Origin: Acidimicrobiia bacterium
GTDB lineage: Bacteria > Acidobacteriota > Terriglobia > Bryobacterales > Bryobacteraceae
Direction of reading: 5' to 3'
Assembly (NCBI GenBank): GCA_016871315.1
Contig: VFZE01000002.1
Location: forward strand, 124,001 to 188,000
DNA: 64,000 nucleotides
The notes under the pieces were generated by a model, which saw nothing but the letters and a program-made list of their open reading frames with translations, was not told the origin of the DNA and ran no database searches. Numbering within the stretch: the first letter of the stretch is position 1; every line of letters begins with the position of its first letter. Below, in pieces: positions 33,134-46,104 of this stretch. The position numbers and the translations under genes are program-made.

Positions 33134-33480
33134 TCAACGAGGGCGGTCCAAATCAAATGAGCTGTAGGAGTACTCGAAGTCGATGGCTCCGGGAATGGAA
33201 ATGCGGGTGAGTTGGTGGAGAGAGTTGAAGGTGCGGGTTTCGACACCGGCGGGGGTGGTGAGCTGTGTCATCTGTCCGGCGGCGTTGTAGGAGATGGCGG
33301 AGACCCAGGCGGTTTGGGTGGCCTGGTGCGTCATGCCGGAAGGGCGGTGCATCGCGTCGTAGGAATAAGTGAAGGTTTGGCCGGGGAGCGGGTTGTAGGC
33401 AGAGTCGTGACTGGCGGGATAGGTCATCGCGGTGCGCGCCCCTTCATTCAATGTCGTACTACTGACTCCATCTTCGATGG
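33134..33480 (-). pseudogene. RHS/YD-repeat protein fragment
   Basis: About 110 codons on the minus strand read as RHS core repeats: FTYSYDAMHRPSGMT, ISYNAAGQMTQLTTPAG, RTFNSLHQLTRI and FEYSYSS, with the repeating Tyr-Asp spacing of YD repeats. A complete RHS protein exceeds a thousand residues. Here the frame ends at a stop just after the FEYSYSS repeat and begins near a junction with a TIR fragment on the other strand. There is no signal peptide, C-terminal toxin domain or ribosome-binding site. It is a relic of a polymorphic-toxin/RHS locus. Confidence 0.8.
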
Positions 33481-33711
33481 GTAGTCAGTGGGTCCTATGG
33501 GAGATCGGCGCCACTTGGGCCCTTGGAAAACCTGTGATCCCGATAGTCACGAGACCTGAGGTTCTGGATTCTCTCCCCGTTTCACTGAAAGCTGTCCAAA
33601 CTCTCGTCATCCACCCGGAAGAACTTGGATCAGATGCAGGGACGCCAGAGAATCGCCGAAGAAATCGACAACGCGATCTCTCGATTGCACGCTCACTCCG
33701 CGGGCCTAAGC
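33456..33711 (+). pseudogene. TIR-domain 3' remnant with a frameshift
   Basis: From 33456 the frame reads VVLLTPSSMGSQWVLWEIG then ALGKPVIPIV, the second half of a bacterial TIR domain (the S-x-W-x-x-x-E alpha-C block with its Glu). The fold continues to LVIHPEELG. Near 33628 the plausible continuation (MQGRQRIAEEIDNAISRL, a C-terminal helix) moves to the +1 frame, indicating an indel. The first half with the phosphate-binding loop is missing. The fragment abuts an RHS relic on its left and the intact S9 peptidase gene on its right. Not functional as it stands. Confidence 0.65.
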
Positions 33712-35703
33712 TCACTTCGCCCGCCACTTCTCAAACCACGCCAGCAGGTACTGCTGCTGCGCCAACTGGTGTGACGGACGCCGCCAGCCGTGAAACTCAT
33801 CCGGCATCCGCACCAGCAGTGTCTCTTTCTTCAGCATCTTCAGCGCCCGGTAGTACTCTTCGCTCTGCGCCATTGGTGTCCGCAGGTCCGCTTCGCCCGT
33901 CATCACCATCGTGGGTGTCGTCACGTTCGCCACATAGTGCAGCGGCGAGCGCACCGCGTACTCCATCGGATCCTCCCACGGGTACTTCTTAAACTGGTCG
34001 TACCACATGATCCCGTCGGTGGTCCCGACAAAGGAGTGCCAGTTGATCACCGGCCGCATCGACACCGCCGCGCGGAAACGGTTCGTATGGCCTACGATCC
34101 ACGCCGTCAGCACGCCGCCGCCGCTGCCGCCGCACACGAACAGGTTCTTCTCGTCCACCCAACCCTTCGCAATCGCCGCGTCCACGCCCGCCATCAGATC
34201 GTCGTAGTCTTTTCCCGGATAGGAATACTGAATCCCGTTCACGAAATCCTGTCCGTAGCCCGTGCTCCCGCGCGGGTTCATGTACAGCACGCCGTAGCCC
34301 TTCGCCGCGAAGTTCTGCCAGGCCCAGTTGAAGCCAACGGTGTAAGCCGACCATGGCCCGCCGTGAATATAGAGCACCAGCGGGTACTTCTTGCCATTCT
34401 CCAGCTCGGCCGGCTGTACCAGCCAGCCCTGCACCTTCAGCCCATCCTTGCTCGTCACCCAGAGTGTCTCCACCTCGCCCAGCTTCCGGCCCTCCAGCAC
34501 ATCGCTGTTCACATCCACCAACTCTTTCCAGCCGTTCGGACGCTTCAAATCACTCACCACCAGCACGCCCGGCTGATGATAGCTGGTCTTCACGGCCGCC
34601 GCGTAGCCGTTTCTGGAAATCGACACGCTCGTCAGCACGTGATTGCCTTCGGTCACCTTCTTCGGCTTCCCGTCCAGGCTCAGCGAATAGAGGTTCGTCG
34701 TCCCGTTCTCATTCATCAGGTAGGTCACGCCGGAGCCGTCCGCCGCCCAATCGACATCACCCGGGGAATCCGGCAGATTGCGGGCCCACGTCTTCTTTCC
34801 GCCGCCGTCGGCCGCCATCAGATAGATGCTCGACAGGTGCCGCGTGTACTTCTTATCGTCGTAGCCTGTGTAGGCGATCCACTTGCCGTCCGGCGACACG
34901 CGCGGATTCCCGTCGGGCCCTTTGCGCTCCGTCAGCGTCCTGATCGCCCCGTTCGTCAGATCGATCGCATAGATCTCGCTGTCGTTCCGGAGATACTCCG
35001 CCTCCGGCTTCCGGATCCCGCTCACATACAGCATCTTTGAATCCTGAGACCATGCCGGCGAGCCGTGATTGTAGTTGCCCTCGGTCACCTGCTTCGGCGT
35101 CCCGCCCACCACCGCATCCACCGTAAACACGTGCCGGTAGCCCTTCGGCACCGGGCCCACGCCGTCCGCCGCCCAACTCGGCCGGTCAATCACGACGGCC
35201 GGCCGCGCCCATTCGGCGCCGCGCGGCTTGTTGGGAAGTTTGATCTCCAGCGCCGGCTTCTCATCGGGCAGGGTCATCGTGAAGGCGATGCGCTTGGAAT
35301 CGGGCGACCACTCGATCCCGTCCACGCGCCGGCTCAGATGCGTGAGCTGCGCCACTTCCTTGGTGTCCACCCACATCACGTGCAGCTGCGATGTCCCGTC
35401 GCGGTCCGAGAGAAAGGCGATCCGCTTGCCGTCCGGCGACCAGACCGGCGAGGTGTCGCGCCAGTTGCCATTGGTCAGCTCGCGTAGCCGCGTCCCCTCA
35501 CGGTCGATCATCCACAGGTTCGATCTCGTTTGGTCCTTCATCTGATCCGCGTAGCTTCGCGAGAAAACGATCAACGAGCCGTCGGGCGAGATCGCCGGGT
35601 TCGACACCGACTCCATATCGAAGAACGTTTCGGTGTCGAGCAGCTTGGCCTTCTCCGCCGCCGAAGCGAGCAGACAGCACACCAGTAATAAGCGCAGTTT
35701 CAT
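33712..35703 (-). CDS. Secreted S9 prolyl oligopeptidase-family peptidase
   Basis: A 663-residue exported peptidase with signal peptide MKLRLLLVCCLLASA. Residues about 30-390 form a beta-propeller with WD40/TolB-like ISPDG, WSPDGKRIAF and VSPDGKWIAY repeats. Residues about 420-660 form the alpha/beta-hydrolase domain with oxyanion region YIHGGPWSAY, nucleophile Ser in GGSGGG near residue 527, Asp in GEADLRTP and His in EFHGW. It resembles acylaminoacyl/dipeptidyl peptidases. GGAGG seven bases before the ATG supports the start. A relic TIR fragment abuts its 3' end. Confidence 0.94.
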   Translation of the reverse strand: MKLRLLLVCCLLASAAEKAKLLDTETFFDMESVSNPAISPDGSLIVFSRSYADQMKDQTRSNLWMIDREGTRLRELTNGNWRDTSPVWSPDGKRIAFLSDRDGTSQLHVMWVDTKEVAQLTHLSRRVDGIEWSPDSKRIAFTMTLPDEKPALEIKLPNKPRGAEWARPAVVIDRPSWAADGVGPVPKGYRHVFTVDAVVGGTPKQVTEGNYNHGSPAWSQDSKMLYVSGIRKPEAEYLRNDSEIYAIDLTNGAIRTLTERKGPDGNPRVSPDGKWIAYTGYDDKKYTRHLSSIYLMAADGGGKKTWARNLPDSPGDVDWAADGSGVTYLMNENGTTNLYSLSLDGKPKKVTEGNHVLTSVSISRNGYAAAVKTSYHQPGVLVVSDLKRPNGWKELVDVNSDVLEGRKLGEVETLWVTSKDGLKVQGWLVQPAELENGKKYPLVLYIHGGPWSAYTVGFNWAWQNFAAKGYGVLYMNPRGSTGYGQDFVNGIQYSYPGKDYDDLMAGVDAAIAKGWVDEKNLFVCGGSGGGVLTAWIVGHTNRFRAAVSMRPVINWHSFVGTTDGIMWYDQFKKYPWEDPMEYAVRSPLHYVANVTTPTMVMTGEADLRTPMAQSEEYYRALKMLKKETLLVRMPDEFHGWRRPSHQLAQQQYLLAWFEKWRAK

Positions 35704-37388: not shown

Positions 37389-38363
37389 ATGGCCCTAAAA
37401 GACTTCATCAAAAAGCAATTCATCGACGTCATCCACTGGACGGAGCCCGAGGAGGGCATTCTGTCCTGGCGCTACCCGATGCGCGACATGGAAATCCAGA
37501 ACGGCGCACAGCTTACCGTCCGCGAGTCTCAGATGGCCGTCTTCGTCAATGAAGGCCGGTGCGCCGATGTCTTCAACCCCGGCCTATACAAGCTGACTAC
37601 CCAGACGCTGCCTCTGCTCACCAACCTGTTGAACTGGGACAAGCTCTTCGACTCGCCCTTCAAGAGCGACGTCTACTTCATGAGCACCCGCCTACAGGTC
37701 AACCAGAAGTGGGGCACACAGCAACCCATCACCATCCGCGACAAGGAATTCGGCGCCGTGCGCCTGCGCGCCTTCGGCATCTACTCCTGGCGCATCTCCG
37801 ATCCACGCACCTTCCACTCAAAAGTCAGCGGTACGGTGGAAACCTACCGCGTCGCCGACATTGAAGGCCAGCTCCGCCACACCATCACCGGCCGCATGGC
37901 CGACACCTTCGGCGAGAGCGGCGTCCCCTTCCTCGACATGGCCGCCAACCAGATCGAGCTGGGCCAGAAGATCGCCGAATTCCTCCGCCCCTCCTTCACC
38001 GACCTCGGACTTCAGCTCGACAGCTTCGTCGTCGAGAACCTCTCGCTGCCGGAAGAGCTGCAAAAGCGGCTTGATGAACGCATCGGCATGACGATGGTCG
38101 GCGACATGGGCAGGTACACCCAGTTCCAGGTCGCGCAGGCGGTTCCCATCGCCGCCGCCAATGAAGGCGCCGGCGGCACGGCGGGACTGGGAGCCGGACT
38201 CGGCGCGGGCCTCGTTATGGCGCAGCAGATGATGGGCTCCATGCAGCAGGCGCAACCTGGGGGAGCCGGGGCAACCGGCGAGACCAAGTTCTGCGTCGAA
38301 TGCGGCAAGTCCATCATCAAGGCCGCCAAATTCTGTCCGGAGTGTGGTAAACCTCAAGCCTGA
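37389..38363 (+). CDS. SPFH/Band-7-like protein with C-terminal zinc ribbon (YdjI-like)
   Basis: A 324-residue protein of the YdjI/virion-core-like SPFH family. Residues about 25-245 carry the SPFH core (VNEGRCADVFNPGLYKL, FMSTRLQVNQKWGT, FGIYSWRISDP, SFVVENLSLPEELQKRL). A Gly/Ala/Met-rich linker follows, then a zinc ribbon FCVECG...FCPECGKPQ (residues about 302-322). There is no N-terminal membrane span, so membrane contact is probably peripheral, as for flotillin-like scaffolds. In Bacillus the relative YdjI works with PspA-type membrane-stress proteins. Here it heads a seven-gene polyamine-linked operon with a strong ribosome-binding site. Confidence 0.9.
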   Translation: MALKDFIKKQFIDVIHWTEPEEGILSWRYPMRDMEIQNGAQLTVRESQMAVFVNEGRCADVFNPGLYKLTTQTLPLLTNLLNWDKLFDSPFKSDVYFMSTRLQVNQKWGTQQPITIRDKEFGAVRLRAFGIYSWRISDPRTFHSKVSGTVETYRVADIEGQLRHTITGRMADTFGESGVPFLDMAANQIELGQKIAEFLRPSFTDLGLQLDSFVVENLSLPEELQKRLDERIGMTMVGDMGRYTQFQVAQAVPIAAANEGAGGTAGLGAGLGAGLVMAQQMMGSMQQAQPGGAGATGETKFCVECGKSIIKAAKFCPECGKPQA

Positions 38364-38365
38364 CG

Positions 38366-38734
38366 ATGCCCGGCGTCGAATGGATCGTAGAGGCTTTCGA
38401 GTGTAACCCCGCGGCGCTGGCCGACCCCGGCCGGCTCCGCGCCCTGCTCGACCGCCTGGTCGCCGACCTCCCGCTGCACCCGGTCGGCGATCCGCTCTGG
38501 CACCAGTTCCCCGGCGCAGGCGGTATTACCGGGCTTTGTCTGCTGGCCGAATCGCACTTTGCCTGCCACAGCTTTCCCGAGCACCGCTCGCTCACCATCA
38601 ATTTGTTCTGCTGCAAGCCGCGCCCGGAATGGGATTTCCGCTCCTACCTCGCACGCGAGTTCGGCGCGGCCCATGTCCGCGTACGGCGCCTCGACCGTCC
38701 CTACACCGCAACGCTGGAGGCAACGGGAACATGA
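38366..38734 (+). CDS. speD: S-adenosylmethionine decarboxylase, pyruvoyl class (SpeD-like)
   Basis: A 122-residue proenzyme of the short prokaryotic SpeD class. It would self-cleave in LLAE-SH, turning Ser63 into the pyruvoyl cofactor. The catalytic His68 and Cys83 fall at the residue numbers known for the Thermotoga enzyme, strong support for activity. The product, decarboxylated SAM, is the aminopropyl donor for the synthase encoded four genes downstream. Sequence around the site (ESHFACHSFPEHRS) is more divergent than in standard SpeD, so an unusual member is likely. It starts two bases after the SPFH stop and overlaps the next gene by ATGA. Confidence 0.88.
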   Translation: MPGVEWIVEAFECNPAALADPGRLRALLDRLVADLPLHPVGDPLWHQFPGAGGITGLCLLAESHFACHSFPEHRSLTINLFCCKPRPEWDFRSYLAREFGAAHVRVRRLDRPYTATLEATGT

Positions 38735-39366
38735 GCCGCCGCTCCGGAGCCTGCCCGCAATGCGGCGCCACGATCAACTTCAAGTTTTCGAGCGCCGTGC
38801 AGACCATCTGCGAATACTGCCGCTCGATCCTGGTCCGCCACGACGTGGATCTGGAAAAGGTCGGCGTTGCCGCGGACCTGCCGCCGGACGTCTCGCCTAT
38901 CCAACTCGGCACTGAAGGCATCTTCGGCAACAAGGCATTCTGGGTCGCCGGCCGCATCGCCTATCAGTACGATCTCGGCGGCTGGAACGAATGGCACATC
39001 GTCTTTAACGACGGTGAGAGCGGCTGGCTCTCCGACGCCCAGGCCGACTACGCCATCAGCTTCCCTTTTGCTCCGCCTGCTCCGCTGCCGGCTTGTTCTG
39101 AACTCATTCCAGGCCGGCCCTTCCAGTTCGACAACACGCGCTTTGAGGTCACAACGCTGACCAAGGCCTTCTACTCCGGCGTCGAAGGCGAGCTTCCCTT
39201 CGAGTACTGGGACAAGGAAGAGGTCCTGTTCGCCGACCTGCGTTCGGCTTCCTCCCGCTTCGGCACCATCGACTACAGCGAAGAGCCTCCGCTTCTCTTC
39301 CTCGGCCAGGCCGTTGAGTTCGACTCGCTGCGTCTCAAGAACCTGAAGGAGTTCGAGGGCTGGTAA
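38731..39366 (+). CDS. Zinc-ribbon DUF4178 protein (first copy)
   Basis: A 211-residue soluble protein. An N-terminal zinc ribbon (CPQCG ... CEYC, residues about 8-32) precedes a DUF4178 domain with IQLGTEGIFGNKAFWVAGRIAYQYDLGGWNEWHIVFNDGESGWL. This is the beta-rich domain found beside polyamine synthases and PspA/SPFH proteins (compare the YjfK-type family in E. coli). ATG 38731 overlaps the speD stop and yields a clean zinc ribbon at the N-terminus; in-frame upstream starts would run through speD. The function is unknown; binding to a membrane or modified substrate is only a guess. Confidence 0.85.
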   Translation: MSRRSGACPQCGATINFKFSSAVQTICEYCRSILVRHDVDLEKVGVAADLPPDVSPIQLGTEGIFGNKAFWVAGRIAYQYDLGGWNEWHIVFNDGESGWLSDAQADYAISFPFAPPAPLPACSELIPGRPFQFDNTRFEVTTLTKAFYSGVEGELPFEYWDKEEVLFADLRSASSRFGTIDYSEEPPLLFLGQAVEFDSLRLKNLKEFEGW

Positions 39367-40677
39367 ATGAGCACACCGGTCAAGGCGAAAGCCCTGAACT
39401 GTCCAAACTGCGGCGGCACCGTGCAGCTCCGCGGCCTTGGCCAGGCGCTTAGCGCCGTCTGCATACAGTGCCTCTCCATCATCGACACCAGCTCCGCCGA
39501 GCTCCGCATCATTCAACAGTTCAAGGTCAAGGAACGTGTCGCGCCGCTCATCCCGCTCGGCACGCGCGGCAAGCTGCACGGCGCCGACTATGAAGCCATC
39601 GGCTTCCAGACGCGCCAGATCATGGTCGAAGGCACCGCCTACGAGTGGCGCGAGTATGTGCTCTTTAATCCTTATAAGGGCTTCCGCTACTTGAGCGAGT
39701 ACGACGGCCATTGGAACGACATCAAGCCGCTCACCGGCCTGCCGGAGCGCGTTTCCCATCAAGGCAAGCCCGCCGCTACATGGCTTGGCAAGACCTACCG
39801 CCACTTCCAGAACGCCGACGCGGAAACCACCTACGTGATGGGCGAGTTCCCTTGGAAGGTCATGGTCGGCGAACGGGCGATCACCGATGACTATGTCGCC
39901 CCGCCCGACATGCTCAGCTCGGAGAAAACGGGTTCGGAAGTCAACTGGTCCCACGGCGTCTACATGGCCGGCGAGCAGGTGCGCGCCGCCTTCTCGCTGC
40001 CCAATCCGCTCCCGCCCTCGCGTGGCGTCTTCGCCAACCAGCCGTCGCCGCACGCGGGAAAGCCGGGCTCCGCTTGGCGCACCGCCGTTCTGCTCTGGGC
40101 CGCCCTCGCCATGGTGATGTTCGGCAGTTCGCTGCTGATGGGCCAGAAGGAAGTCTTCAAGCAGATGTTCACCTTCACGCAGGGCTCGCGCGGAGAACCT
40201 TCACTGGTCACAGGCGCCTTTGACCTCGACGGCCGCGAAACCAACGTAGAACTCTCTGTCCGCACCGACCTCGACAACCGCTGGGCCTATTTCAACTTCG
40301 CCCTCATCAACGAAAAGACCGGGCAAGCCTACGACTTCGGCCGCGAGGTCAGCTACTACCGCGGCCGCGACTCCGACGGCGACTGGACGGAAGGCAGCTC
40401 CGGTGACACCGTGCTGATTCCGTCAGTTCCGGCCGGCCGGTACTACCTGCGCGTCGAGCCGGAAATGGACCCTTCGCGGCCCGGCCAGTCCATGCGCTAC
40501 TCGCTCACCTTGCGCCGCGACGTGCCCTGGAATCTCCCTTTCTTTGTTGCCTTCATTCTGATCGCGATTCCGGCCATTCTCATCACCCTGCGCTCGGCCG
40601 GCTTTGAATCCCGCCGCTGGGCCGAATCCGACTACGCGCCCAGCTCCAGCGGCGACGACGAGGACGACGACGAATGA
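39367..40677 (+). CDS. Zinc-ribbon DUF4178 membrane protein (second copy)
   Basis: A 436-residue protein with three parts: a zinc ribbon (CPNCGG ... CIQC, residues 12-35); a DUF4178 domain (about 58-190, IPLGTRGKLHGADYEAIGF, EWREYVLFNPYKGFRYL); and two membrane spans (about 238-258 and 388-408) enclosing a 130-residue periplasmic beta-sandwich (TGAFDLDGRETNVELSV ... PSVPAGRYYLRVEPE). The cytoplasmic tail is acidic (DDEDDDE). It starts immediately after the previous stop. Its topology would connect a cytoplasmic polyamine-related domain with a sensor-like periplasmic domain; this is inference. Confidence 0.85.
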   Translation: MSTPVKAKALNCPNCGGTVQLRGLGQALSAVCIQCLSIIDTSSAELRIIQQFKVKERVAPLIPLGTRGKLHGADYEAIGFQTRQIMVEGTAYEWREYVLFNPYKGFRYLSEYDGHWNDIKPLTGLPERVSHQGKPAATWLGKTYRHFQNADAETTYVMGEFPWKVMVGERAITDDYVAPPDMLSSEKTGSEVNWSHGVYMAGEQVRAAFSLPNPLPPSRGVFANQPSPHAGKPGSAWRTAVLLWAALAMVMFGSSLLMGQKEVFKQMFTFTQGSRGEPSLVTGAFDLDGRETNVELSVRTDLDNRWAYFNFALINEKTGQAYDFGREVSYYRGRDSDGDWTEGSSGDTVLIPSVPAGRYYLRVEPEMDPSRPGQSMRYSLTLRRDVPWNLPFFVAFILIAIPAILITLRSAGFESRRWAESDYAPSSSGDDEDDDE

Positions 40678-40862
40678 TCAAGCATCCCCTCTTCATGGCC
40701 TACGGCCTGCTCACCATTCTCCTCTCCGGCTACACGCAGTACCGCGGCTGGGGCAACATCTCCACCAATGAACTGCGGAACGTCCCCAAGACCATCCGCG
40801 ACAACCCGGGCTCCTACCGTTCCCACTACGGTTACATCCCACGCTACGCAGGAGGCAAATAA
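40674..40862 (+). CDS. Small membrane protein of the SPFH-polyamine operon
   Basis: A 62-residue protein with one N-terminal span (LFMAYGLLTILLSGYTQY) and a basic, Tyr/Arg-rich tail (SYRSHYGYIPRYAGG). It starts in an ATGA overlap with the DUF4178 gene. It is too short for confident family assignment, but the overlap, membrane span and position in an unbroken operon support a real gene. It may be an accessory subunit of the neighbouring membrane proteins. Confidence 0.75.
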   Translation: MIKHPLFMAYGLLTILLSGYTQYRGWGNISTNELRNVPKTIRDNPGSYRSHYGYIPRYAGGK

Positions 40863-40865
40863 GCC

Positions 40866-41078
40866 ATGGCCGAATTCCAAGTCGTTTACCTCATTAACGC
40901 GCTGGTCTTTTCCTTGATGGGCATCGTCATCTTCGTCGTCGCTTTCAAGGTGATCGACAAGGCGACGCCGTTCCAGCTCTGGAAAGAGATCATCGAGGAG
41001 CACAACACTGCCCTCGCCATCCTGTTGGGCGCCATGTCCATCGGCCTATGCCTGATCATCGCCGCCGCCGTCCACTAA
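40866..41078 (+). CDS. DUF350-family small membrane protein
   Basis: A 70-residue protein with two membrane spans (VYLINALVFSLMGIVIFVVAF and LAILLGAMSIGLCLIIAAAV) joined by a short acidic loop (WKEIIEEHN). The spacing and the repeated small residues fit DUF350, usually 60-140 residues and here a one-unit form. DUF350 genes co-occur with DUF4178, PspA-like and polyamine or glutathionylspermidine synthase genes, including E. coli yjfL. The biochemical role is unknown; a channel or membrane scaffold is plausible. It precedes the synthase by one base. Confidence 0.82.
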   Translation: MAEFQVVYLINALVFSLMGIVIFVVAFKVIDKATPFQLWKEIIEEHNTALAILLGAMSIGLCLIIAAAVH

Positions 41079-41079
41079 C

Positions 41080-42582
41080 TTGACCGCTGTACTCTTTCTC
41101 TCGGTCTTCCTGATCGCCGCTTGCGGGCTCATCTATGAGTTGATCGCCGGCACGCTGGCCAGCTACCTGCTCGGCGACTCCGTGCTCCAGTTCTCCACCG
41201 TCATCGGCAGCTACCTGTTCGCCATGGGCATCGGCAGCTACCTCTCGCGTTTCCTGCACAAGGGCCTCGTGGCGCGCTTCGTGCAGATCGAGCTTCTGGT
41301 CGGGTTGATCGGCGGCTTCTCCTCCACGCTCCTGTTCCTCGCCTTCTCCTACACCGAGAGCTTTCGGTTCATCCTCTACTCGCTCGTGCTGATCATCGGC
41401 ATCCTCGTCGGTCTGGAAATCCCTCTGCTAATGCGCATTCTCAAGGAGCGCTTCCAGTTCCACGACCTGGTCGCCAACATCCTCACCTTCGACTATCTCG
41501 GCGCGCTCGGCGCATCGCTGCTGTTCCCGTTGTTGCTGGTCCCGCGACTCGGCCTGGTCCGCTCGGCCATCCTGTTCGGAATGCTGAACGCCGGCGTCGC
41601 GCTTTGGTCCACCTGGATCTTCAAGTCGCACATCGCGCGGCCGCTGCCGATGCGCGCCGCCTGCTTCCTCGGGCTTGCCGCCCTTGCCGGCGGAATGTTC
41701 CGCGCCGAACAGATCACGACTCTTGCCGAGCAGACACTCTACGCCGATGAAGTCATTCTGGCCCGCTCCACGCGCTACCAGCGCATCGTGCTCACCCGCT
41801 TCAAGGACGACGTCCGCCTTTTTCTTAACTCGCATTTGCAGTTCTCCTCGCGCGATGAGTACCGCTACCATGAAGCGTTAGTCCATCCCGGCCTCGCCGC
41901 GCGGCCCAGCGCCCGCCGTGTTCTGATCCTTGGCGGCGGCGACGGGTTGGCCGCCCGCGAGATCCTACGCTATCCCGGCGTCGAGTCCATCACCCTGGTT
42001 GATCTCGACCCTGAGATGACCGGGCTCTTCTCCACCCACCCCCTGCTCACCGGCATCAATCAAAACGCCCTCAACTCACCCCGCTTGAAGATCGTCAACG
42101 CCGACGCCTTCGTCTGGCTGGATGAGACGCAGGACGAGTTCGACTTCACCGTCATCGACCTGCCCGACCCCACCAACTTCTCCTTAGGCAAGCTCTACAC
42201 CACCGCCTTCTACCGCCTGCTCTCGCGCCACCTCACTCCCGGCGGCCTGATCGCCGTGCAGAGTACCTCGCCGCTATTCGCCCGCCAGTCCTTCTGGTGC
42301 GTAGTGGAAACCATCCGCCACTCCGGCTGGCGTCCGTATCCTTATCATGTCTACGTTCCCTCCTTCGGGGAATGGGGTTTCGTGCTGGCCTCCCACGGCA
42401 ACTCGGCCTACGAGCCGCCGATGCAGCTCCCCTCCGGGCTACGCTTTCTGACCGCCGCCAATATCGCGCAACTCTTCCACTTCCCCAAGGACATGGAGCC
42501 CGTCGACGCCGAACCCAACCGCCTCAACAACCAGGTCCTGGTCCGCTACTACGAACACGAGTGGAGCCAGATTACGCGGTAA
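41080..42582 (+). CDS. Membrane-fused polyamine aminopropyltransferase (spermidine synthase-like)
   Basis: A 500-residue fusion. Residues 1-215 form about seven hydrophobic spans related to the membrane half of long SpeE proteins. Residues about 220-490 form the aminopropyltransferase: YQRIVLTRF, GGGDGLAAREILRYPGVESITLVDLDPEM near 285-310, and VIDLPDPTNFSLGKLYT carrying the catalytic Asp-x-x-Asp region. It would transfer an aminopropyl group from decarboxylated SAM to an amine acceptor at the inner face of the membrane. The acceptor cannot be read from sequence. TTG 41080 is the start, one base after the DUF350 stop. It closes the seven-gene operon. Confidence 0.9.
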   Translation: MTAVLFLSVFLIAACGLIYELIAGTLASYLLGDSVLQFSTVIGSYLFAMGIGSYLSRFLHKGLVARFVQIELLVGLIGGFSSTLLFLAFSYTESFRFILYSLVLIIGILVGLEIPLLMRILKERFQFHDLVANILTFDYLGALGASLLFPLLLVPRLGLVRSAILFGMLNAGVALWSTWIFKSHIARPLPMRAACFLGLAALAGGMFRAEQITTLAEQTLYADEVILARSTRYQRIVLTRFKDDVRLFLNSHLQFSSRDEYRYHEALVHPGLAARPSARRVLILGGGDGLAAREILRYPGVESITLVDLDPEMTGLFSTHPLLTGINQNALNSPRLKIVNADAFVWLDETQDEFDFTVIDLPDPTNFSLGKLYTTAFYRLLSRHLTPGGLIAVQSTSPLFARQSFWCVVETIRHSGWRPYPYHVYVPSFGEWGFVLASHGNSAYEPPMQLPSGLRFLTAANIAQLFHFPKDMEPVDAEPNRLNNQVLVRYYEHEWSQITR

Positions 42583-42605: not shown

Positions 42606-42911
42606 ATGGATATCCAGAAGACCATGGAGTTCATCCTCGAACAGCAGGCGGCGATGACCGCCCGTCAAGCTGAGCGCGGAGAACGCATGGCTGAGCATGA
42701 CAAGCGCATGCTCAAGATCGACAAGCGAATTGATGCCACCACGAAGCTGATTCAGACGGGGATGAGAATGCTGGTCAAGACGGACGAAAGGCTAAAGGCC
42801 TTGGCTGACGCTCAATTGCGTGCCGAGCAACGCTCCGCTGAAATCGACGCCCGCCTCGACCGTCTCATCCAAGCTTTGTCCCGTGGCAGCAACGGCCACA
42901 AGAAGAACTAG
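42606..42911 (+). CDS. Small coiled-coil hypothetical protein
   Basis: A 101-residue, strongly charged helical protein with heptad-like repeats (FILEQQAAMTARQAERGERM, KRMLKIDKRIDATTKLI, LRAEQRSAEIDARLDRLIQAL). Such small coiled-coil proteins are scattered in many copies in Solibacter-type genomes. Their function is unknown. ATG 42606 was chosen because the frame upstream runs antisense to nothing useful and through the synthase gene, and because a -10-like box lies just before it. It converges on the next gene with a four-base gap. Confidence 0.7.
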   Translation: MDIQKTMEFILEQQAAMTARQAERGERMAEHDKRMLKIDKRIDATTKLIQTGMRMLVKTDERLKALADAQLRAEQRSAEIDARLDRLIQALSRGSNGHKKN

Positions 42912-43759: not shown

Positions 43760-44485
43760 TCAACGCGCGTCAGGCTGCTGCTTCCGAGCCCACTGGAGGA
43801 AAGGCCGGATGAGCTGCAATTCCGCGTCGGAATATGCGCGCGTCTCCGCGGCGTGATCCCATCGGCTGGCCGCGTCGGTTTGCAAATCGGCGCCCGCAAC
43901 GGTCCGCAGAACCGGGAGCCTGGAACCAAGATCCCACAACCTGGTCACACTCCCGGGTTCCAGCACGAGTGCAGGAAACGTCTCTGCGCCGATCCGCGCT
44001 GTCACCACGCCTTTGCCGGAGCCGCCCCGCAGGTTCCAGGAGGCGGACCGGCTCAAGTCGGGGCCGACTTTCGATCCCCAGCCATCCACCTCATGACAGC
44101 GGCCGCAGCCGTTCATCCGGGCGGCGTCGAAGAACAGGTTGCGTGACCGCTCGAGTTCCGGCGTAAGCTGGGTTCTCGAGGAGATGCCCCATTCATTCTT
44201 CCTAGGACCGGCTCCCGCAAATGTCATCACGTATCGGGTGACCGCTTCGATCTCCTCTGCCGTGAGGTCTCTGTCGAAACCCGGCATTCCCTTCGCCGGC
44301 AGGCCGCCGGAGACAATGGAAAACACCGCCGAGGAATTGTAGGTATGCCCAATCAGTTTTGGAGCCCTGCCTGCGCTGCCCGCCTGACCATGACAGTAGG
44401 GCACGGCGCAACGGGCACGGAACAATGCCGCACCATCCTGGGCGATGGCTGCCGCGGTGACGGCAAATAGCACAAAGCTCTTCAT
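43760..44485 (-). CDS. Periplasmic diheme cytochrome c with an atypical CX4CH motif
   Basis: A 241-residue exported protein (signal MKSFVLFAVTAAAIAQ). The first heme site reads CAVPYCH at residues 26-32, four residues between the cysteines instead of two; the second is CGRCH near residue 122. Methionine ligand candidates include KGMPGF. It overlaps the PQQ dehydrogenase stop by ATGA and has GGAGG before ATG 44485, so it is almost surely the electron acceptor of that enzyme. The long frame continuing upstream is the shadow of the dehydrogenase and was not used. CX4CH sites are known but rare. Confidence 0.88.
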   Translation of the reverse strand: MKSFVLFAVTAAAIAQDGAALFRARCAVPYCHGQAGSAGRAPKLIGHTYNSSAVFSIVSGGLPAKGMPGFDRDLTAEEIEAVTRYVMTFAGAGPRKNEWGISSRTQLTPELERSRNLFFDAARMNGCGRCHEVDGWGSKVGPDLSRSASWNLRGGSGKGVVTARIGAETFPALVLEPGSVTRLWDLGSRLPVLRTVAGADLQTDAASRWDHAAETRAYSDAELQLIRPFLQWARKQQPDAR

Positions 44486-46104
44486 TGACCCACCTCCGGG
44501 AGCGCAAACACCATCAGCGCCGAGCCGGCTCGCGGCGCCGGCGCATCCGGGAATATGCTGAGATGGAACATTCCCAAAAACGACCCCCACCCCAACGGGG
44601 TCGCCACATATTGCCTGCCATTCACGGCGTAGGTAATCGCGCCTCCCCTGTGCCCGCCTCCGGTTTGAAAGCTCCAGAGTTTCTTGCCGTCGCGTGCGTC
44701 CAGCGCGAAGAAGTTCCCTTCGGGGTCGCCGGTAAACAGCAGGTCTCCGGCGGTGGCCAGCAGTGATGCCATAAACCATGTCTTGCCGGGCAGGCTCCAT
44801 TTCCTGGACCCGGTCAAGGGATCAAACGCAGCAAGGTAGCCTTCGATTTTGCCGTCGGGTGGAGGTTTGATGATCCAACTGCCGCCAATGTATATTTGGC
44901 CTTCCTGCGGTTCCTGCTCGCGCGCCATCAAGTCATTACATGCCTCCACTACCGGCAAGTACAGGAGCCCGGTCCGCGGCGACCATGCGGATTCGTTCCA
45001 GCTTTTGCCACCCATCGCGCTCGGGCACACGAACAGCCCTTTCCCGATTTCGGGGTCCCGCCGCCCCACCAGTTTTCCGCCTTCGGTGATGCCGGCCACC
45101 CAATTGCTGTGTTTCACAAACTGCCAGGCTTTGATGAACTCGCCGTTGGAACGGTCCAGCAACCAGGTGTAGCCCGCCTTGGTGGAATGAAAAAGCAACT
45201 TACGCATCTTTCCCGCGACCGGCAGATCGGCCAGGACCAGCTCGTAGACGGAATCGTAATCCCATACGTCGTGCGGAACCTCCTGGTAGTGCCAGACAAG
45301 CTTGCCGGTGTCCGGATTCAGCGCCACCACACTGGCCGTGTACAAGTTGTCGCCGCGCCGGTTTTTTGACAGAATGTCGCCCGCCGCATTCCCGACGCCC
45401 CAATAGAGCAGATTCAGTTCCGCGTCATAGGAGCCGGTCATCCAGGTGGAGCCTCCTCCATGACGCCAACTGTCTCCGGGCCACGTTTCGTGACCGTTCT
45501 CCTCGGGACCGGGAATCGTGTAGAAGCGCCAGTGGAACCGGCCTGTCCGAATGTTCAGCGCCGTCAGGTAGCCGCGGTGCGCCGAGTCGCCGCCGGTCAC
45601 GCCGAACACCGCCACGTCCTTTACCGCCAAGGGAGCGCCGGTGATATTGCAGCCGCACTGGCGGGTATCTTCCATGTTGACCCGCCACTTCTCCTTCCCG
45701 GTTTGCGCGTCGATACCGACGGCGTGGTTGTCGGCGGTGCCGAGCAGCACCATCCCTTGCGACACGGCCACGCCGCGGTTCTGCTTTCCATAGACAGCGG
45801 TGTTCTCGGGAGCATATCGATACTCCCAGATGAGGCGCCCGTCGGCTGCATTCAGCGCGATCACCCAGCCTTGCGAAGTCGACACATACATCACGCCGCG
45901 CTGCACAATCGGTGTTGCCTGCAAGCCGTGTTCGATATCACCGGTCTGGAATGACCATGCGGGCGTGAGCCGCCCTACGTTGCTTGTATGGATCTGGGCG
46001 AGGCTGCTATAGCGCCATGCCGCATAGTTTCCGCCATGCGTACCCCAGTCGGCCTGCGCCAACAGATTGGCGACAACAACAAAAAGACACGACCATGTTC
46101 TCAT
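44482..46104 (-). CDS. PQQ-dependent dehydrogenase (quinoprotein)
   Basis: A 540-residue periplasmic quinoprotein with signal MRTWSCLFVVVANLLAQA and an eight-bladed propeller. Blade motifs include AAWRYSSL, GRLIWEYR, GDNLYTASVVALNPDTGKLVWH and RDGKKLWSFQTGG. The active-site loop HDVWDYDS near residue 281 has Asp-x-Asp, the pattern linked to lanthanide use in XoxF-like enzymes. The usual vicinal Cys-Cys is replaced by QCGC. It would oxidise an alcohol or sugar and pass electrons to the coupled cytochrome downstream. No fused cytochrome domain is present. Confidence 0.9.
   Translation of the reverse strand: MRTWSCLFVVVANLLAQADWGTHGGNYAAWRYSSLAQIHTSNVGRLTPAWSFQTGDIEHGLQATPIVQRGVMYVSTSQGWVIALNAADGRLIWEYRYAPENTAVYGKQNRGVAVSQGMVLLGTADNHAVGIDAQTGKEKWRVNMEDTRQCGCNITGAPLAVKDVAVFGVTGGDSAHRGYLTALNIRTGRFHWRFYTIPGPEENGHETWPGDSWRHGGGSTWMTGSYDAELNLLYWGVGNAAGDILSKNRRGDNLYTASVVALNPDTGKLVWHYQEVPHDVWDYDSVYELVLADLPVAGKMRKLLFHSTKAGYTWLLDRSNGEFIKAWQFVKHSNWVAGITEGGKLVGRRDPEIGKGLFVCPSAMGGKSWNESAWSPRTGLLYLPVVEACNDLMAREQEPQEGQIYIGGSWIIKPPPDGKIEGYLAAFDPLTGSRKWSLPGKTWFMASLLATAGDLLFTGDPEGNFFALDARDGKKLWSFQTGGGHRGGAITYAVNGRQYVATPLGWGSFLGMFHLSIFPDAPAPRAGSALMVFALPEVGQ

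Follow-up and report, generated by a model that had tools for sequence, protein, structure and literature searches.

The window analysed here is a stretch of 64,000 nucleotides from an Acidimicrobiia bacterium (GTDB family Bryobacteraceae; assembly GCA_016871315.1, contig VFZE01000002.1, positions 124,001 to 188,000). At 37389-42582 it carries seven open reading frames (ORFs), all on the + strand, which encode an SPFH protein, a SpeD-like S-adenosylmethionine (AdoMet) decarboxylase, two DUF4178 proteins, a small protein of 62 amino acids, a DUF350 protein and SpeE-TM, an aminopropyltransferase domain fused to membrane helices. This class of cluster and the idea that it serves an unusual acceptor are already in print; what is new is the terminal lysine of the 62-amino-acid protein, which persists while the rest of the protein diverges. 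The genes are, in order:

37389..38363, + strand: SPFH/Band_7_1 protein, 324 amino acids, with a C-terminal zinc ribbon (PF13421, 259.7 bits; PF13240, 25 bits, just at the cut-off)
38366..38734, + strand: SpeD-like class 1b AdoMet decarboxylase, 122 amino acids, with S63, H68, P71 and C83 (PF02675, 82.4 bits)
38731..39366, + strand: DUF4178 protein A, 211 amino acids, with an N-terminal zinc ribbon (CxxC...CxxC by eye; PF13785, 47.2 bits)
39367..40677, + strand: DUF4178 protein B, 436 amino acids, with an N-terminal CxxC...CxxC zinc ribbon (PF13785, 70.2 bits)
40674..40862, + strand: single-pass membrane protein, 62 amino acids, C-terminus ...RYAGGK, terminal lysine codon at 40857-40859, lysine kept in relatives
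40866..41078, + strand: DUF350 protein, 70 amino acids, two hydrophobic spans by eye, last residue histidine (PF03994, 52.4 bits, about half of the model)
41080..42582, + strand: SpeE-TM, TTG start, seven helices read as membrane spans (residues 2-207) and an aminopropyltransferase domain at about 224-500 (NF002956, 691.7 bits; PF01564, 120.3 bits)

The junctions are, in order, a gap of 2 nt, an overlap of 4, a gap of 0, an overlap of 4, a gap of 3 and a gap of 1, so that the unbroken gene order described in the first-pass annotation, which was made from the sequence alone, was borne out. Pfam and NCBIfam agreed with the protein names it had given, its three zinc-ribbon proteins were recovered (PF13240 at the cut-off in the SPFH protein, CxxC...CxxC in both DUF4178 proteins), and the roughly seven spans fused to a SpeE-like domain correspond to AlphaFold helices from 2-31 to 188-207. 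The 62-amino-acid protein matched no Pfam or NCBIfam family. The DUF350 proteins of cluster loci end in H or G in 77 of 82 frames, and in -HG in those inspected.

When the 62-amino-acid protein was aligned with its neighbours, a -GK end was found in 16 of 16 sequences. Among 80 named loci (the best 80 of 562 found, which lean towards close relatives), 23 proteins matched its hidden Markov model (HMM) with at least 40 bits, and 22 of these end in -GK and one in -HK; several loci of other phyla that had no HMM match encode short membrane proteins with a -HK or -GGK end. Under a first blind rule, which chose a short ORF that has a hydrophobic N-terminus and terminates where DUF350 or SpeE begins, 87 loci gave a candidate, with lysine as its last residue in 83, and 40 loci gave none; the hydrophobicity threshold of this rule was lowered before counting, the initial value having missed many small ORFs. 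A second blind rule simply took the gene immediately upstream of DUF350 and ignored the last residue in choosing. Applied to 221 loci, 167 of which have DUF350 and SpeE on one strand with DUF350 first, it gave 151 picks (138 distinct sequences) and no pick in 16, and 144 of the 151 end in lysine. By set, these were 92/92 for the named loci, relatives and further loci, 24/29 for 30 Pseudomonadota, 10 Acidobacteriota and four plasmid loci, and 28/30 for 18 Bacteroidota and 28 Myxococcota loci. As a control, the same rule found a lysine end upstream of SpeD in 7/55, of SPFH in 0/14 and of DUF4178-B in 3/114 cases; upstream of SpeE it found 14/150, and some of these lysine-ending genes encode the tail proteins themselves.

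The terminal-lysine rule is thus well supported. A general habit of cluster proteins was rejected as its source, given that the six other cluster families (DUF4178 A and B, DUF350, SPFH, SpeD and SpeE-TM) have a lysine end in 13 of 751 frames, with 22 DUF4178 frames ending in -HK or -GK set aside. Shared ancestry alone was rejected as well: after removal of the last six residues, the 138 distinct picks fell into clusters that were entirely lysine-ending in 94 of 101 cases at 70% identity, 54 of 59 at 50% and 24 of 28 at 40%. Kinship was handled by identity clusters only, and distinct-sequence counts are given because several loci represent the same genome reached twice (L056/L098, L075/L081 and most of L253-L262). 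Of the 131 distinct lysine-ending picks, 86 have G and 41 have H as the penultimate residue.

The window gene ends in GGA-GGC-AAA, a potential ribosome-binding site for DUF350, and the -GGK end could be read as arising incidentally from a Shine-Dalgarno sequence (GGAGGNAAR) that lies within the last codons and serves the following gene. Of the 86 -GK genes, 56 do contain a Shine-Dalgarno-like word of 4 to 6 nucleotides within their last five codons, and the window itself reads GGAGGCAAATAAGCCATG at the gene end. However, such a word was found in only 2 of the 41 -HK genes, and the lysine is kept with both of its codons (AAA 73, AAG 58 among the 131 distinct picks), with all three stop codons and in displaced or fused genes. 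As two codons and three stops are used, the lysine does not appear to be a signal at the DNA level, and the codon, stop and -HK counts largely refute a Shine-Dalgarno origin, which we regard as very improbable. A Shine-Dalgarno contribution to the Gly-Gly may exist.

The lysine tail is common to several architectures, namely small single-pass proteins, fusions of DUF4178, a transmembrane helix and the tail, and lipoproteins. In 14 loci without a small lysine-tail gene, mostly from Burkholderiales, a DUF4178 protein has a C-terminal transmembrane helix and a Gly/Ser tail that ends in -HK in 14 of 14. Across all sets, 22 DUF4178 proteins end in -HK or -GK, 21 of them with a hydrophobic span; the exception (L124) may be a chance case. 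Gammaproteobacterial clusters, as well as some of those from Bacteroidota and Acidobacteriota, encode a larger partner that ends in -RGK, -GGK, -SGK or -FGK (17/17, collected by their ends and so not blind). A check of ten larger partners showed a lipobox-like motif in eight, and BLAST found all ten to be related. Counting any form of linked lysine-tail protein, again not blind, gave 26/30 loci in Pseudomonadota, 15/18 in Bacteroidota and 24/28 in Myxococcota. The Pseudomonadota loci are 30 of 31 positives, the 31st (the centre genome G245) being locus L143, and the 28 Myxococcota loci were fetched by choice from 62 positive genomes.

The gene set as a whole is conserved far beyond close relatives. 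SpeE-TM proteins above the curated cut-off of 472 bits of NF002956, the model for membrane-type polyamine aminopropyltransferases, were found in 37 of 199 Acidobacteriota, 31 of 299 Pseudomonadota, 18 of 247 Bacteroidota and 62 of 117 Myxococcota genomes. Searches with the window proteins (phmmer) found all seven genes in order at nine loci of relatives, and much of the order recurs in other phyla, so that the neighbourhood conservation that the first-pass annotation had asked about exceeds what chance would give. In the window's own genome and 40 relatives, SpeE-TM was present at 58% identity or more in 17 of 41 genomes (partial matches on cut contigs counted), and SpeD was present in 15 of these 17 compared to 3 of the other 24; two of these three genomes (G022 and G025) carry SPFH, SpeD and DUF4178 on short contigs. 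The sample is without actinobacterial clusters, a DUF4247 variant of which is named in excerpts of PMC11237479.

According to the section of that paper (mSystems 2024, PMC11237479) on PspA-linked operons, these combine a spermidine-synthase-like domain fused to seven transmembrane helices, DUF350, DUF4178 and a lipoprotein, and have variants with band-7 proteins, AdoMet decarboxylase and polyamine oxidase. The SpeE-TM, DUF350 and DUF4178 genes of its group 2 operons are likewise found in the window. Its CesT/Tir-PspA dyad has no counterpart there: neither PspA nor CesT families were matched among the eight ORFs tested by Pfam (the seven of the operon and 42606-42911), which places the window closest to the band-7 variants. 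The eighth ORF, 42606-42911 on the + strand, lies downstream of SpeE-TM and encodes a coiled-coil-like protein of 101 amino acids with no Pfam match over the cut-off. The section of PMC11237479 on these operons names no terminal lysine and no acceptor, and the paper cites Li et al. 2019.

The SpeD-like protein of the window is probably an AdoMet decarboxylase. Ser63, His68 and Cys83 were found exactly where the first-pass annotation had placed them, and these residues serve self-processing and catalysis in class 1b AdoMet decarboxylases, according to excerpts of PMC10407285. The divergence around the cleavage site that the same annotation had taken as a mark of specialisation was not found, as the cleavage motif ESHFACHSFPEH, followed by Cys83, is intact in the window. 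Across 114 SpeD frames from the loci, that of the window among them, S63 is kept in 114, H68 in 110 and C83 in 107, and Pro71 in 113; the latter is assumed to be the proline which, in the same excerpts, separates AdoMet decarboxylase from arginine decarboxylase. A neofunctionalised ornithine or arginine decarboxylase was rejected, as motif and proline favour AdoMet decarboxylase, even though a substrate is read from sequence without certainty. The protein is called SpeD-like here because it scored 53.8 bits against TIGR03330, below the cut-off of 75.65.

SpeE-TM shares the catalytic fold and the AdoMet-binding residues of soluble SpeE, and differs by its N-terminal transmembrane helices and an altered acceptor pocket. 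Its AlphaFold2 model has a mean predicted local distance difference test score (pLDDT) of 87.9, and the catalytic domain matches solved aminopropyltransferases; among the Foldseek matches listed, all fall on the catalytic domain only and the best is the Thermus aminopropyltransferase 1uir (E = 1.4e-16). An alignment of 32 SpeE-TM proteins shows that they keep the residues known from spermidine synthases to serve catalysis and AdoMet binding. Position 396 of the acceptor pocket, which is acidic in four of six soluble SpeE controls, is Thr in 32/32 of these. The larger, redundant set comprised 223 frames, one from the window and 222 from the loci, of which 215 had the relevant column aligned; position 396 is T in 202, G in 10, and S, A and C in one each, and is never acidic. 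The gate-loop position 371 is occupied by K in 195, R in 19 and H in one, that is, a basic K or R in 214 of 215, compared to a basic residue in none of the six controls. Departures elsewhere are confined to a few frames; E265, for example, is present in 215 of the 223.

The side chain of lysine is the (CH2)4-NH2 of putrescine, with a carboxylate at the far end. A basic residue at position 371, near the far end of the acceptor, would therefore pair better with that carboxylate, if the acceptor is a C-terminal lysine, than with the second amino group of putrescine. Taking into consideration the uniformly changed pocket and the conservation across four phyla, the dedicated membrane-bound aminopropyl system proposed in the first-pass annotation gains in support. 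No evidence was found for the lipid acceptor it had suggested, and a protein C-terminal lysine is favoured by much indirect evidence.

Ordinary polyamine synthesis, with SpeD and SpeE-TM as a membrane-located source of spermidine or a similar polyamine and the lysine tail serving some other purpose, is in our view improbable. The intact catalytic and AdoMet-binding residues fit it, and so does the gene content of this genome, where the operon SpeD is the single PF02675 match and SpeE-TM the only clear match to PF01564, a frame of 792 amino acids giving a marginal one. A search for a second, ordinary speD/speE elsewhere in the genome had been put forward as a check on the idea of a dedicated system; on this point the result went against the idea, while the wide conservation of the system spoke for it. 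The sole pair makes ordinary spermidine synthesis possible, judged from this genome alone. On the other hand, the altered pocket and basic gate residue are uniform, SpeE-TM of the window scored 121 bits against TIGR00417 (speE), below the cut-off of 249.55, and the cluster is recurrently linked to DUF350, DUF4178 and a lysine-tail protein. The relative G003 (loci L052 and L053) has a cluster without its own SpeD and, on another contig, an ordinary speD-speE pair, which may be a natural case either of separate roles or of SpeD working in trans. Among 18 further chosen genomes, SpeD was found in 17, and a second SpeE judged clear by scores and frame lengths was found in two: in G242, which also has SpeE-TM, this SpeE shares one open frame of 458 amino acids with the only SpeD match of the genome (G242:C23:19128-20219), and in G254 there is a second SpeE and no SpeD match.

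Earlier work also speaks against spermidine as the product. The 2019 study of Li et al. reportedly found functional AdoMet decarboxylases in bacteria that have fusions of membrane domains to spermidine synthase (SpdSyn) and contain no spermidine, and complementation of an E. coli speE mutant was reportedly not obtained. The authors reportedly noted that speD occurs in genomes that also encode DUF350 and a SpdSyn-like protein fused to membrane domains, and proposed aminopropylation of an acceptor other than putrescine, which they apparently left unnamed.

The proposal that we favour, and to which we give about an even chance, is that SpeE-TM aminopropylates the C-terminal lysine of its partner protein with decarboxylated AdoMet made by SpeD, probably outside the cytoplasm, to give a hypusine-like tail. 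In this scheme SpeD would decarboxylate AdoMet, and the catalytic domain of SpeE-TM would aminopropylate a partner protein of the envelope on the side-chain amine of its conserved C-terminal lysine. In the window the candidate partner is the 62-amino-acid protein, whose gene directly precedes that of DUF350. The modified residue would be an N-epsilon-(3-aminopropyl)lysine, similar to deoxyhypusine, at the C-terminus of a flexible tail; such an acceptor would fit a pocket that lacks the acid of most soluble controls and in which a basic residue is conserved. SPFH, DUF4178 and DUF350 may form a scaffold, and DUF350 or the seven-helix domain would have to carry decarboxylated AdoMet across the membrane.

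The orientation of the enzyme suggests an outward-facing reaction. Mean numbers of K plus R in the loops of SpeE-TM are 2.6, 3.3 and 2.3 for loops 2-3, 4-5 and 6-7, compared to 0, 0.9, 1.4 and 1.0 for loops 1-2, 3-4, 5-6 and the segment after helix 7, so that with seven spans the positive-inside rule would place the catalytic domain outside. The small tail proteins have a charge of +1.25 before the transmembrane helix versus +0.38 after it (36 versus 14 of 68). Lipoprotein partners place the tail outside, as do the fusions of DUF4178, transmembrane helix and tail if DUF4178 and its zinc ribbon are cytoplasmic. Catalytic domain and acceptor tail therefore probably both face outward.

Several observations weigh against this proposal. 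The sole SpeD and SpeE-TM pair of the window's genome could in principle make spermidine, and a catalytic domain outside would need decarboxylated AdoMet to cross the membrane, for which we know of no precedent. Loop 5-6 of SpeE-TM is still net positive (+1.44), which makes the topology call a moderate one. The pocket comparison is built on six soluble controls, two of which have no acid at position 396 (Gly in E. coli, Ile in the Acidobacteriota control). Seven of the 151 picks of the second rule end in residues other than lysine, with a lysine-tail protein elsewhere in all seven loci by other searches, and one lysine-ending pick (L343, -RK) is a spurious-looking frame. No linked lysine-tail protein was found in 4/30 Pseudomonadota (L226, L233, L243 and L246), 3/18 Bacteroidota (L304, L314 and L315) and 4/28 Myxococcota loci (L321, L331, whose upstream sequence is only 458 bases, L344 and L348), nor was one identified in 16 loci of the earlier set, some on short contigs, or in L073, one of four distant relatives examined. 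The rescue searches for lysine-tail proteins used the terminal lysine as a criterion.

The terminal lysine could alternatively be a docking or sorting signal for DUF350, SPFH or another envelope factor, with SpeE-TM acting on some other substrate, for instance a small amine, a lipid or a component of the cell wall, a reading to which we assign perhaps one chance in four. Recognition is a frequent role of C-terminal motifs, the tail protein adjoins DUF350 in most loci that have one, and DUF350 has a conserved end of its own. In some loci, however, the tail protein adjoins SpeE, lies on the other strand or is fused to DUF4178, and the E. coli yjfLM locus has DUF350 and a -GG tail with a different enzyme, whereas the lysine goes with SpeE-TM in the loci examined; the basic gate residue also suits a carboxylate.

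A flavin amine oxidase may act on the product of the proposed aminopropylation. An oxidase of the PF01593 type (two verified by Pfam) was found in 145 of 225 loci, and among 45 matches listed it lies on the same strand within about 2 kb after SpeE-TM. A loose twin-arginine pattern was found in 125 of the 145, some also with a lipobox; this count is approximate, as frames may overrun the true start. The oxidase is present in 62/80 named, 9/30 Pseudomonadota, 9/10 Acidobacteriota, 10/18 Bacteroidota and 14/28 Myxococcota loci. No PF01593-type oxidase was found in the window, and the window's genome has an unlinked orthologue (G000:C49:16500-17363, L353) with a start, RRRFL, that resembles a twin-arginine translocation (Tat) signal. 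SpeE-TM might thus use the lysine while the oxidase makes the end product, for example an allysine-type aldehyde that cross-links the protein to the envelope. The frequency of the oxidase, its Tat-like motifs and the unlinked orthologue agree with such a step, but it is found in fewer than a third of the Pseudomonadota loci (9/30) and in half of those from Myxococcota (14/28), so that it is not essential, and we consider this version rather unlikely.

For the remaining operon genes, structural comparison gave few leads. The SPFH protein, likely a membrane scaffold, had no convincing relative in a sequence search of solved structures. The AlphaFold2 model of DUF4178-B (mean pLDDT 89.9) consists of the zinc ribbon, the DUF4178 beta domain, a helix at 232-257 read as transmembrane, a second beta domain at 261-384, a helix at 390-419 also read as transmembrane, and an acidic tail; the Foldseek matches listed were to beta proteins only, with low template-modelling scores. 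Elsewhere in the window, a TIR-like fragment (33432-33992, + strand, by eye) overlaps a YD/RHS-repeat-like fragment (33134-33451, - strand), both of which look like remnants, and a pyrroloquinoline quinone (PQQ)-quinoprotein-like protein adjoins a cytochrome-c-like protein at 43760-46104 on the - strand (by eye).

Similar arrangements are found in the ygiB-ygiC and yjfM-yjfC pairs of E. coli, where, as proposed here, an envelope-type protein (DUF1190) with a Gly/Ser/Arg-rich tail adjoins a polyamine-handling enzyme. The low-complexity, Ser/Gly/Arg-rich tails of YgiB and YjfM end in SRSMGG and GHWGG (L361:1745-2416 and L188:12388-13026), their genes adjoin those of YgiC and YjfC, annotated as peptide-spermidine ligases, and the yjf locus also has DUF350. 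These systems differ in that the enzyme is an ATP-grasp ligase instead of SpeE-TM and the tails end in -GG, not -K; no ATP-grasp ligase was found by Pfam among the eight ORFs of the window. DUF1190 proteins have no clear homology to the lysine-tail lipoproteins, and a common origin of the two was rejected, with weak scores only, on the signal peptide and the low-complexity tail. Systems of the ygiB-ygiC/yjfM-yjfC type are the subject of Pederick et al. 2023, as cited in excerpts of PMC12568646, PMC12270671 and PMC10948618; excerpts of PMC8503589 and PMC11107197 were also used. The -GG tails of YgiB and YjfM are possibly the acceptors of the adjoining ligases, and by analogy both systems may put a polyamine on a protein C-terminus whose last residues are matched to the enzyme.

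Hypusine and deoxyhypusine on eIF5A are a known case of a polyamine-type amine on a lysine side chain, and are aminobutyl-based, placed on an internal lysine and made by an unrelated enzyme. The modification proposed here would likewise put a polyamine-type amine on lysine, with an aminopropyl group, a C-terminal lysine and a SpeE-type enzyme. Aminopropyl decoration of a peptide product is known from microcin C, where the group sits on the nucleotide phosphate. In the open-licence part of PubMed Central, no paper on aminopropyl-lysine or protein aminopropylation was found, and at least two of DUF4178, DUF350, DUF4247, Rv2600 and Rv2601 occur together in the mSystems paper alone.

Membrane-fused SpeE proteins are found in several phyla, and the excerpts of PMC11237479 name no acceptor for them. 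The conserved terminal lysine and the basic gate residue make the proposed acceptor testable by mass, as an addition of +57.058 Da on one C-terminal peptide. In a wider and more speculative form, to which we give about one chance in three, the modification would be widespread: an outward-facing anchored enzyme would make C-terminal aminopropyl-lysine on envelope proteins, a Tat-exported oxidase would often act next, the complex would move decarboxylated AdoMet, and YgiC and YjfC would represent a parallel route, via -GG tails, to polyamine-tipped envelope proteins. If the proposed aminopropylation of the C-terminal lysine is correct, it would add a polyamine-type protein modification besides hypusine, and would tie polyamine chemistry to SPFH scaffolds and envelope stress genes.

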